Shown here in pieces: positions 33,381 to 36,335 of a stretch of DNA of 64,000 nucleotides (its first letter is position 1; every line of letters begins with the position of its first letter). This DNA is from Myxococcus xanthus (lineage in GTDB: Bacteria > Myxococcota > Myxococcia > Myxococcales > Myxococcaceae). Made by a program: the position numbers and the translations under genes. The notes under the pieces are model-generated. The model was not told the DNA's origin. It did not search any database and saw only the letters and a list, made by a program, of their open reading frames with translations. The stretch lies in contig NZ_FNOH01000001.1 in the NCBI RefSeq assembly GCF_900106535.1, forward strand, positions 868,001 through 932,000, in the 5' to 3' direction.

Positions 33381-34088
33381 CTACCAGGTGGTGTGCAGCG
33401 AGTAGCTCGCGGCCCGGGTGTCCAGGCTGAGGAAGGAGAACTGCCCCTCCGAGCACGTGCCGCTGTTGAGGAACAGCTTGCTGCCGTGCTCCACCCGCAG
33501 GCCCAGGTGGGTGTGGCCGGTGACGACGACGTCCGCGTGATGCGCGTTGGCCCGCGCCATGGCCCAGCGCTGGAAGGTGCACCGCGCCGGGTCCGGCAGC
33601 GCGTTGGTGATTTTCAAGTCCAGCGCCTGGAACCAGCGGAACATCGCCCGCATCCGCATCCGCCGCAGCCACGCCCCGGCCCACACCGCCGCCTCCGACA
33701 GCAGGCGCGCCTTGCGAATCATCCAGTCGTGGTGGTGTCCGTGGGTGAACAGCATCCGCACGCCGTCCGCCTCCAGAATCATCTGGTCGGGCGCCCCCAG
33801 CACGGTGCCCGCCACCAGGTCGTGGTTGCCGTGGATGTAGTGGTAGCGCGGCAGCTCGAAGCGCCGGACGATTTCCGGGTGCGCCGCGCGGGCCGCCAGC
33901 AGCTCGGCCACCTTCCGCCCTGGCGTGCGCGGGGTGAGCGTTTCGAAGATGTCCCCGAGCAGCACGATGCGCTCGAAGTTGCCTTCCAAGAAACGGAGGA
34001 ACCGCAGGAAGCCGGAGTCGTCGTGCCCGAAGTGGTCGGCGGCATCACGCCGCCCGAGATGTAGGTCCGAAATCACCGCGATCCGCAT
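33381..34088 (-). CDS. calcineurin-like metallophosphoesterase (LpxH-like)
   Basis: A 235-residue enzyme with the full set of metal ligands: ISDLHLG, LLGDIFE, IHGNHD, FTHGHHHD and GHTHLG. The order and size resemble LpxH-type UDP-2,3-diacylglucosamine diphosphatases, but the lipid-A assignment is not secure because related phosphodiesterases share the motifs. It has no signal peptide. ATG 34088 starts directly on the first metal motif (MRIAVISDLHLG). It is divergent from the SPFH gene across 344 bases. Confidence 0.85.
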   Translation of the reverse strand: MRIAVISDLHLGRRDAADHFGHDDSGFLRFLRFLEGNFERIVLLGDIFETLTPRTPGRKVAELLAARAAHPEIVRRFELPRYHYIHGNHDLVAGTVLGAPDQMILEADGVRMLFTHGHHHDWMIRKARLLSEAAVWAGAWLRRMRMRAMFRWFQALDLKITNALPDPARCTFQRWAMARANAHHADVVVTGHTHLGLRVEHGSKLFLNSGTCSEGQFSFLSLDTRAASYSLHTTW

Positions 34089-34376
34089 GCGCTCTCCCAA
34101 AGTGCCCCGGAAAGGTAGGGACTGCGTGCGGCGGCGGAATGGTCGGTGCGCGAAAATCTCGCTGCAACCGGATGCCATTCGTGTGTCGCCACGATGCACC
34201 TTTCCTCTTGGCCCGGCATCACTGGCGCCAGATCCGGGGCTCCCGCCACCCTGCGCACGACCGGCGCATTCGTCCATGAGACCTGTGTGCTTTGTGTCGC
34301 CGCGCGGATGAACCGTGATTCGGCACCGGACATCCGCGGGTCCGCACCTCGCGCTTCCGCACATTGACTTGAATTC

Positions 34377-34391
34377 GTGTCCATTGGACAC
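34377..34391. promoter_or_regulatory. perfect 15-bp palindrome, candidate operator 1 of the SPFH/NAD-kinase-like operon
   Basis: GTGTCCA-T-TGGACAC is a perfect 7-1-7 inverted repeat. Its centre (34384) lies 22 bases, two helical turns, before the centre of the second palindrome (34406), and the outer GTGTC/GACAC bases are the same in both. It overlaps the place where a -10 element would lie 17 bases after the TTGACT box at 34364, so a bound dimer would block transcription. Confidence 0.6.
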
Positions 34392-34398
34392 TAACTAT

Positions 34399-34413
34399 GT
34401 GTCTTGAAGACAC
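34399..34413. promoter_or_regulatory. perfect 15-bp palindrome, candidate operator 2 of the SPFH/NAD-kinase-like operon
   Basis: GTGTCTT-G-AAGACAC is a second perfect 7-1-7 inverted repeat sharing GTGTCyw-n-wrGACAC with operator 1. It ends 19 bases before the ATG at 34433 and ahead of the GGAGGG ribosome site. Two like sites two turns apart suggest cooperative binding of a dimeric regulator encoded elsewhere; no regulator gene adjoins. Confidence 0.6.
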
Positions 34414-34432
34414 GAAGAGGGGCGGAGGGCCC

Positions 34433-35398
34433 ATGGTCATCGGCTACATGAAGGCGGCACCGACGACGTACGTGATGCAGTTCGAGGCGGGAAAGGTGGT
34501 CCGGGAGGGGGCGGGGCTCTCGTTCTTCTACTGGAAGCCGTCGGCGACGCTGGTGTCGGTGCCGCTGTCCAGCGCGGACGTGCCCTTCGTCTTCAACGAA
34601 GTCACACGGGACTTCCAGGCGGTGACGCTGCAAGGGCAGCTCACGTGGCGCGTCACCGACCCGCGCCGGCTTGCATCGTTGCTGGACTACTCCTTGGGCC
34701 CCACGGGGCGCTACCACTCGGACGACCCGGAGAAGCTCGAGGAGCGGCTGGTGCAGGTTGCGCAGGTGCGGGCGCGCTCGGTGGTGCAGGGGCTGACGCT
34801 GCGCGAGGTGCTGGTGCGCTCGGACGCCATCGAGCAGCAGGTGCTCGCGGCCCTGGCCGTGGCGGAGCCGGTGAAGGCGCTGGGGGTGGAGGTCATGGCC
34901 TTCTCGCTGCTGTCGGTGAAGCCGGCGCCGGAGATGGCGCGGGCGCTGGAGGCCGAGGCGCGCGAGGCGCTGCAACGCAACGCGGATGAAGCCATCTACG
35001 CGCGCCGCAACGCCGCGGTGGAGCAGGAGCGGCGCATCAAGGAGAGCGAGCTGGCCACGGAGTTGGCGGTGGAGGCGCGGCAGCGGCAGATTCGCGAGGC
35101 GAAGATGGCCGCGGACATCGCCGTGGAGGAGCAGCGCGCCGAGTTGATGACGCGCTGGAGCGACAACGAGCGGCAGGCCGCGGATGCCCGCGCGTACGCG
35201 CTGGAGAAGACGCTGGCCCCCGTGCGCGGGGTGGACTGGAAGACGCTGATGGCCACGTCGGCCAGTGGCGGGGACCCGGCGCTCAACATCGCCCTGGCCT
35301 TCCGGGAGATGGCGGAGAACGCGCAGCGCATCGGCGAGCTGAACGTGTCGCCGGACCTCCTGCACTCGCTGGTGGGCGCGGCGGGCCGCGAGCGCTGA
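34433..35398 (+). CDS. SPFH/band 7 domain protein
   Basis: A 321-residue protein. Residues ~5-190 form an SPFH domain (FVFNEVTRDFQAVTLQGQLTWRVTD in part; VVQGLTLREVLV; VKALGVEVMAFSLLSVKP) followed by a long charged coiled coil (~residues 160-250, with ALQRNADEAIYARRNAAVEQERR in part). It has no N-terminal membrane segment, unlike flotillins and stomatins, so membrane contact would be peripheral. SPFH proteins form oligomeric scaffolds. ATG 34433 has GGAGGG at the right distance; an ATG at 34397 lies inside the second palindrome and is less likely. The NAD-kinase-like gene follows after 16 bases. Confidence 0.88.
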   Translation: MVIGYMKAAPTTYVMQFEAGKVVREGAGLSFFYWKPSATLVSVPLSSADVPFVFNEVTRDFQAVTLQGQLTWRVTDPRRLASLLDYSLGPTGRYHSDDPEKLEERLVQVAQVRARSVVQGLTLREVLVRSDAIEQQVLAALAVAEPVKALGVEVMAFSLLSVKPAPEMARALEAEAREALQRNADEAIYARRNAAVEQERRIKESELATELAVEARQRQIREAKMAADIAVEEQRAELMTRWSDNERQAADARAYALEKTLAPVRGVDWKTLMATSASGGDPALNIALAFREMAENAQRIGELNVSPDLLHSLVGAAGRER

Positions 35399-35414: not shown

Positions 35415-36335
35415 ATGTACGAGAAAATCGTGCTCGTCACCCGCCGCACGCGCATGGCGGGCCTGGTGGAGCGCTTCAACACCAAGAAGCAGGCGAAGTT
35501 CTACGTGGAGCACGCGGGGCAGGACTTCGATGAGTTCACCCGCGAGGACGAAACCTACCGGTGCAACGTGGACTCGCTGCGGGAGTCGCTGTCCTTCGGG
35601 CTGCCGGTGCAGCAGGTGGACCGGAGCCTGGTGCCCACCTTCCTCTTCACCGGCAAGGAGGTGGTGGTCGTCGCGGGGCAGGACGGGCTGGTGGCGAACG
35701 TGGCGAAGTACGTGGGGGAGCAGCCGCTGGTGGGCGTGAATCCGGACCCGGAGCGCTTCGACGGCGTGCTGTTGCCCCATTCGGTTTCGGGGGCGCGCGG
35801 GGCGGTGCGGCGCGTGTTGGAGGGCAAGGCGGCCTTCAAGCGCGTGACGTTGGCGGAGGCGCGGCTGGATGACGGGCAGCGGCTGCTGGCCTTCAATGAC
35901 TTGTTCATCGGGGCGCGCTCCCACGTGTCCGCGCGCTACCGGCTGCGCACCGGGGACCAGGAGGAGTCCCAGTCCTCCAGCGGCGTGGTGGTGTCCACGG
36001 GTGCGGGCGCCACCGGGTGGCTGTCCTCCATCTTCAACCTGGCGCGAGGCGTGACGGCCCACGCGGGTGGGGTGCCGTGCGCGCCCGTGCGCCTGGGCTG
36101 GGAGGACCCGCAGCTGATTTTCGTGGTGCGCGAACCCTTCGCCAGCCGTCACTCGGGCGCCAGTCTGGTGATGGGCGACGTGACGGAGGAGCGCGAGCTG
36201 GTGCTGGAGTCGCGAATGGCGTCGGAGGGCGTCATCTTCAGCGACGGCGTGGAGGAGGACTTCCTCCGCTTCGGCGCGGGTGCCACCGCTCGCATCCGCC
36301 CCGCGCGGCAGCGCGCCATGTTGGTGGCGGGCTGA
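35415..36335 (+). CDS. NAD-kinase-like fold protein
   Basis: A 306-residue protein with the NAD/diacylglycerol-kinase fold. The usual GGDGT loop is seen as GQDGL at residues 88-92, keeping the key Asp90. The second motif, normally T-P-T-G-S-T-A-Y, reads STGAGATGWLSS. These changes suggest a sugar or nucleotide kinase activity other than ordinary NAD kinase. It is in an operon with the SPFH gene. It ends in the paired hairpins shared with the convergent gene. Substrate unknown. Confidence 0.75.
   Translation: MYEKIVLVTRRTRMAGLVERFNTKKQAKFYVEHAGQDFDEFTREDETYRCNVDSLRESLSFGLPVQQVDRSLVPTFLFTGKEVVVVAGQDGLVANVAKYVGEQPLVGVNPDPERFDGVLLPHSVSGARGAVRRVLEGKAAFKRVTLAEARLDDGQRLLAFNDLFIGARSHVSARYRLRTGDQEESQSSSGVVVSTGAGATGWLSSIFNLARGVTAHAGGVPCAPVRLGWEDPQLIFVVREPFASRHSGASLVMGDVTEERELVLESRMASEGVIFSDGVEEDFLRFGAGATARIRPARQRAMLVAG

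Follow-up and report, generated by a model that had tools for sequence, protein, structure and literature searches.

NrtR-family repressors combine a Nudix domain with an NrtR winged-helix domain (NrtR_WHD), and ADP-ribose has been reported as the ligand of the Shewanella and Mycobacterium members, SoNrtR and MsNrtR (PMC4666351, PMC6800001). Bacteroides AraR (BtAraR; 5ddg, 5bs6) differs in having arabinose as effector, arabinose targets and an inactive Nudix domain. It was crystallised on a 27-bp oligonucleotide containing GTGT-TACTTTT-ACAC, a motif set by Lys179, Arg180, Asn181, Lys184 and wing residues, and on a tandem site it gave two EMSA bands that the authors read as one and two dimers (PMC4666351). 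Aravind and colleagues predicted ARG-centred ADP-ribose conflict systems under Nudix or WYL regulators, described as single neighbourhoods around an ADP-ribosylglycohydrolase (PMC9503650).

The locus analysed here, positions 34377-34413 of a 64,000-nt stretch of Myxococcus DNA (the window), is very probably the twin operator of an NrtR-family repressor encoded elsewhere in the genome (G000:C1:184889-185587), which would control an SPFH–NAD-kinase-like (SPFH-NADK) operon through an NAD-derived ligand. Computation established the sites, their conservation, the promoter geometry, the match in recognition helix, the joint occurrence of the sites with the regulator, and the make-up of the regulon, and the reading draws on these.

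Like SoNrtR and MsNrtR, the candidate regulator has Nudix and NrtR_WHD domains, a site upstream of its own gene and NAD-related targets. However, in place of nadABC or nadM the predicted targets comprise SPFH-NADK, PP2C/kinase and nicotinamidase-like genes, and the promoters carry two operators each, unlike those of SoNrtR and MsNrtR (MsNrtR motif, GTTTTCGA-N7-TCGAAAAC). The Nudix signature is complete in the Myxococcus protein, whereas that of MsNrtR is mutated (PMC6800001) and that of SoNrtR looks degenerate in our alignment. With Bacteroides AraR the system shares a DKRNFRK helix, a GTGT-N7-ACAC site and tandem operators, although the operators lie 22 bp apart from centre to centre and those of AraR 24 bp (3 bp between 21-bp sites). 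A Nudix transcription factor, a phosphatase, a vWA-type chaperone and Macro/NADAR accessories are shared with the ARG-centred systems (PMC9503650), but in Myxococcus one chromosomal regulator would serve dispersed operons, with SPFH-NADK as the main remote target.

NrtR regulons, GTGT-reading members, tandem operators and predicted Nudix-regulated ADP-ribose conflict operons are already known. A literature search that covered few subscription papers found no description of NrtR in Myxococcus or of an SPFH-NAD-kinase operon. As far as that literature goes, what is new is the regulon in myxobacteria, with SPFH-NADK as the chief remote target, the promoter geometry, and the presence of this operator at NADase and PARG genes. 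The analysis gives an orphan DNA motif a named candidate regulator, predicted contact bases and a regulon that can be tested, and would connect a functionally unassigned SPFH-NADK pair with the sensing of NAD/ADP-ribose.

Paired sites over the predicted SPFH-NADK promoter

The first-pass annotation had described two perfect 15-bp palindromes with shared ends and 22 bp between centres, and its positions were exact: GTGTCCATTGGACAC is centred on 34384 and GTGTCTTGAAGACAC on 34406. Its placing of the pair at the promoter of an SPFH/NAD-kinase-like operon also held, with one operator in the predicted spacer and the other over the predicted start. The features of the region are listed below, the promoter elements and start position being predictions from the sequence.

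34369..34374, + strand: -35-like element TTGAAT, included in the composite-pattern matches
34377..34391, unstranded: operator 1, GTGTCCATTGGACAC, GTGT-N7-ACAC, occupying 15 bp at the downstream end of the 17-bp -35/-10 spacer
34392..34397, + strand: putative -10-like element TAACTA, weak, lacking the final T (the sister operator has TATGTT)
34399..34413, unstranded: operator 2, GTGTCTTGAAGACAC, GTGT-N7-ACAC, over the predicted transcription start at about 34403-34405
34424..34428, + strand: ribosome-binding-site-like GGAGG, preceding the start codon at 34433
34433..35398, + strand: SPFH/Band 7 protein, 321 aa, operon gene 1 (PF01145, 74.1 bits; cut-off 23.6)
35415..36335, + strand: NAD-kinase-like protein, 306 aa, operon gene 2 (PDB and Foldseek matches to NADK2)

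Exact matches to GTGTC-N5-GACAC within the window were confined to these two sites. A lone perfect 7-1-7 palindrome is a chance-level event there, with 11 observed against a mean of 10.1 expected from 200 Markov-1 simulations. The pair is not: no simulation (0/200, Markov-1) produced two 7-1-7 palindromes at most 60 bp apart with common 5-nt ends, and the genome-wide search gave 12 GTGTC-N5-GACAC matches versus 2 for the reversed control pattern. Ten of these 12 lay outside the window operon, the majority within open frames of coding-like composition, and one (L002) adjoins nrtR. Pairs of GTGT-N7-ACAC with a 4-8 bp gap numbered 2 in the same genome versus 0 in the control.

The 7-1-7 description was upheld for the two window copies, both perfect, and fell for the conserved motif. 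In a set of 60 operators taken from 30 different SPFH promoters, the three inner base pairs were complementary in 24, 9 and 22 cases; pairing of the inner bases is therefore not kept, and what is conserved is GTGT-N7-ACAC, with C/G preferred next to the arms. The GTGT/ACAC ends were fixed by selection in this tally, and unselected SPFH upstream regions have the same ends. The perfect inner pairing of the window palindromes is incidental, and perfect 7-1-7 symmetry was rejected as a signal on its chance-level count and on the inner pairs not being kept.

A composite promoter-operator pattern, TTG-N5-GTGT-N7-ACAC-TA, matched twice in the genome (the window and the nrtR cluster) and in 27/27 genus genomes, with 0 matches for the reversed control. 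An in-frame upstream ATG at 34397 was rejected as the SPFH start, since orthologues differ in how far their conserved ATG lies from operator 2. A calcineurin-like phosphoesterase gene (33381-34088, minus strand) diverges from the operon and has no GTGT pair on its promoter side.

The second gene product matched PDB 7r4j by sequence (E=2.2e-8), and its AlphaFold2 model (pLDDT 92.6) had 7r4m as top Foldseek match (E=4.2e-19), which indicates an NAD-kinase fold; judged from this model and the sequence, it is nearest to human mitochondrial NADK2. It had no Pfam match at 0.001. NAD kinases carry a GGDG motif; the corresponding GQDG segment, in which Asp is kept and the second Gly replaced, was invariant in 40 aligned sequences. 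PADLOC gave no match for the SPFH or the NADK protein.

An SPFH orthologue was present in 72/96 family genomes (E <= 1e-20), and all fetched Myxococcus/Pyxidicoccus SPFH loci showed TTG...GTGT-N7-ACAC-TA...GTGT-N7-ACAC upstream. GTGT-N7-ACAC pairs at window-like spacing occurred in 65/96 family genomes, with none for the reversed control. The location tally took in 127 tandem sites among the matches listed; the SPFH genomes G100 and G101, whose sites were not among these, do not enter the SPFH count. Of these, 53 lay just upstream of SPFH, 68 lay at most 8 kb from an nrtR gene and 6 were elsewhere; among the last, 3 precede the usual PP2C or nicotinamidase-like genes (two in G065, one in G099). 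Tandem sites without an explained target, again among the matches listed, were those of G067, G080-C2 and G096-9885815. Absence of the motif upstream of orthologues, which the annotation had set against its own reading, was looked for, and the motif was present at 53/53 SPFH genes tallied. Spacing among the 127 matches listed was 22 bp in 119, 23 bp in 7 and 19 bp in 1.

Two records from further afield were also noted. One, labelled Comamonas sp. KCTC 72670, is probably a mislabelled myxobacterium, as its SPFH protein is 93% identical and stands behind Myxococcus-type operators. In a Thioploca MAG, SPFH and NADK are again paired, with about 50% and 44% identity to the window proteins, and these operators are absent.

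The candidate regulator and its co-occurrence with the sites

The operon has no adjacent regulator gene, as had been remarked earlier, and the candidate NrtR-family gene (G000:C1:184889-185587) lies 717 kb away. The genome's only other tandem site is just downstream of this gene, before PP2C and kinase genes, and a single GTGT-N7-ACAC lies upstream of nrtR. The protein has an N-terminal Nudix domain (NUDIX PF00293, 78.1 bits; cut-off 21.1) and a C-terminal NrtR winged helix (NrtR_WHD PF21906, 104.7 bits; cut-off 27), the architecture of the NrtR family. Its AlphaFold2 model (pLDDT 88.4) gave BtAraR 5bs6 (E=1.2e-24) and SoNrtR-DNA 3gz6 (E=8.4e-20) as top PDB matches.

Alignment revealed that the recognition helix DKRNFRK is identical to BtAraR Asp178-Lys184. 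The BtAraR contacts Lys179, Arg180, Asn181 and Lys184 are all kept in the Myxococcus protein, as is wing Arg205, and wing Lys204 is replaced by His. Of the 63 genomes with this NrtR, 34 were read, and all 34 had the same helix and a complete Nudix signature (GX5EX7REUXEEXGU). All nrtR-linked operators were GTGT-N7-ACAC, which, like the BtAraR oligonucleotide, fits the GT-N7-AC core reportedly assigned to palindromic NrtR-family sites by Rodionov in 2008. The protein scored 176.9 bits against NF050029, the NCBIfam equivalog for ADPR-responsive repressors, below the cut-off of 400, so its ligand may differ from ADP-ribose. PADLOC gave a weak match in the Nudix region only.

With this NrtR defined at E <= 1e-130, tandem GTGT sites were present in 63/63 family genomes that encode it versus 2/33 that do not, a count that is not a probability because the genomes share ancestry. 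One of the two exceptions, G015, is a draft of 1010 contigs with the SPFH twin site, in which NrtR was not found (best match E=1e-19); the other, G067, has odd tandem spacing and no plausible target. Outside the family but within the order, G042 and G057 combine a DKRNFRKK NrtR with tandem sites; G056 also encodes a DKRNFRKK NrtR and carries composite sites. The tandem site of G042 precedes a nicotinamidase-like gene, and the sites of G057 precede SPFH and a NADAR-PP2C-kinase operon. The promoter-operator pattern lay upstream of nrtR itself in 17/40 further genomes.

We weighed three other readings of the sites. Operator 1 lies wholly inside the 17-bp spacer, the position expected of a MerR-type site, where an activator would untwist the promoter, but the spacer length is normal, a second matching operator lies downstream, and no MerR-family gene was seen adjoining the operon among open reading frames or Pfam matches. 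MerR proteins normally bind one site, and we regard this reading as extremely improbable. A different, unlinked repressor with GTGT-N7-ACAC specificity, having nrtR merely among its targets, would account for the distance between the NrtR gene and the window operon and for G015, which has the site and in which NrtR was not found. Against it, NrtR shares its recognition helix with BtAraR, which was crystallised on GTGT-N7-ACAC, sites and NrtR co-occur in all 63 genomes, and the sites upstream of nrtR in the further genomes fit a prediction of autoregulation; such a repressor is unlikely.

The host and the MrpC motif TGTY-N8-RAC, whose half-site letters are the same (PMC4320627), would fit binding by MrpC, which is a CRP-like regulator of development in Myxococcus, or by another CRP-like protein. 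The gap here is TGTC-N5-GACA, fixed and three bases shorter, and MrpC was rejected on this half-site spacing (N5 vs N8). Moreover, MrpC targets number hundreds, whereas the tandem pattern occurs at only two places in the genome, and NrtR accounts for both; a CRP-like protein is thus very improbable, and the NrtR-family repressor is the preferred reading. Points that weigh against the NrtR reading are G015, the three listed tandem sites lacking an explained target, His in place of wing Lys204, the weak -10 of the window promoter, the NF050029 score below its cut-off, and the differing helix and missing GTGT site in G031.

Gene linkage at two loci with other helix sequences was counted in favour of the NrtR reading. 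In G031, nrtR adjoins SPFH-NADK, the helix is NKDSFRR, which differs, and no GTGT site was found beside these neighbours. G106 (L119, 6425-10510) has a cluster of nrtR, a NADAR-Macro fusion, DUF4291 and an SPFH relative; its NrtR helix is DIRNFRKR and the cluster has no GTGT pair.

Regulon content and proposed mechanism

Among the 59 genus composite matches listed, SPFH and the nrtR cluster each accounted for 26, 1 lay upstream of nrtR, and 6 were at other places. Of the 99 matches listed for the 40 further genomes, 46 stood downstream of nrtR and 17 upstream of it, 27 belonged to SPFH, and 9 were at other places, 4 of these 9 preceding the usual PP2C or nicotinamidase-like genes. The matches listed thus left 11 extra targets (6 genus, 5 further genomes), located by the pattern without use of knowledge of NAD genes.

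Behind these composite sites were four RES-domain genes (G017, G018, G023, G085), two PARG genes (G002, G009), a NADAR operon (G057) and SIR2-like genes in G096 (L214 locus; Pfam, 81 bits) and G078 (L212; PADLOC only, 41 bits, in an early-stopping frame). The remaining two targets were, in G077, a DUF2971 gene and, in G007, a gene that matched no Pfam family. Genes of NAD+ or ADP-ribose metabolism accounted for 9/11 extra targets in four or five gene families, as a raw count. RES toxins break down NAD+ (PMC11535050). The targets examined included no arabinose-utilisation genes, which would mark the AraR subgroup. The name nicotinamidase-like is tentative because the Pfam score of 20.2 is under the cut-off of 27, and the protein had no PDB match. 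At the four RES loci (L202, L206, L207 and L213), HEPN-RES and RES-domain (NADase-type) genes stood directly behind the promoter-operator, and one of the SIR2-like genes at L214 and L212 had a ThsA-like PADLOC match (95 bits).

From these sequences we infer how NrtR binding, repression, effector response and cooperativity might work. One NrtR dimer would bind each GTGT-N7-ACAC site, the first inside the -35/-10 spacer and the second over the start point; two dimers placed two helical turns apart on the same DNA face would switch the SPFH-NAD-kinase operon off. Dimer binding and cooperativity are suggested by the fixed spacing (22 bp in 119/127 matches listed) and by analogy with BtAraR. An NAD-derived ligand, most likely ADP-ribose, would be bound by the Nudix domain, causing the winged helices to turn away and freeing the promoter. 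Breakdown of NAD+ would then raise SPFH-NADK, the PP2C/kinase operon, the nicotinamidase-like/vWA-like operon and NrtR together. Since the Nudix signature is complete, the sensor may also destroy its own inducer.

More tentatively, the regulon might form a chromosome-wide NAD-breakdown alarm in myxobacteria, a reading that we consider possible without favouring it. One ADP-ribose-type sensor, able in principle to destroy its inducer and reset, would act through an operator shared by effectors that destroy NAD+ (RES, SIR2/ThsA-like), enzymes that erase ADP-ribose (PARG, NADAR) and genes for NAD(P) recovery (nicotinamidase-like, and an NADK2-type kinase scaffolded by SPFH). If this is true, NAD depletion, for example by phage attack, would both amplify defence and prime recovery. 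The target list suggests that defence-type NADases in myxobacteria have taken on a metabolic sensor's operator; if so, coupling between NAD depletion and recovery is directly testable in a laboratory organism.

Relatives with GAGT-N7-ACTC operators

In genera g5, g29 and some others, which lack this NrtR, SPFH-NADK is preceded by GAGT-N7-ACTC, in which the second base of each arm is changed. In AraR, the second arm base lies at the step entered by Arg180 (PMC4666351). The tandem GAGT form was present in 6/96 family genomes, all at SPFH, and exact GAGTC-N5-GACTC was present at 10/14 SPFH loci fetched from g5/g29 relatives. The sole NrtR-like protein of these relatives has the helix DPGNFRR, and a GAGT site beside its gene was looked for and not found.

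GAGTC-N5-GACTC stood in place of GTGTC-N5-GACAC at L121, L123, L125, L127, L129, L131, L134, L138, L141 and L145, and several of these loci have two copies about 31-33 bp apart. Other GAGT loci included a nicotinate-phosphoribosyltransferase-like gene (G070) and a 2OG-oxygenase/OCD pair (G068, G069).
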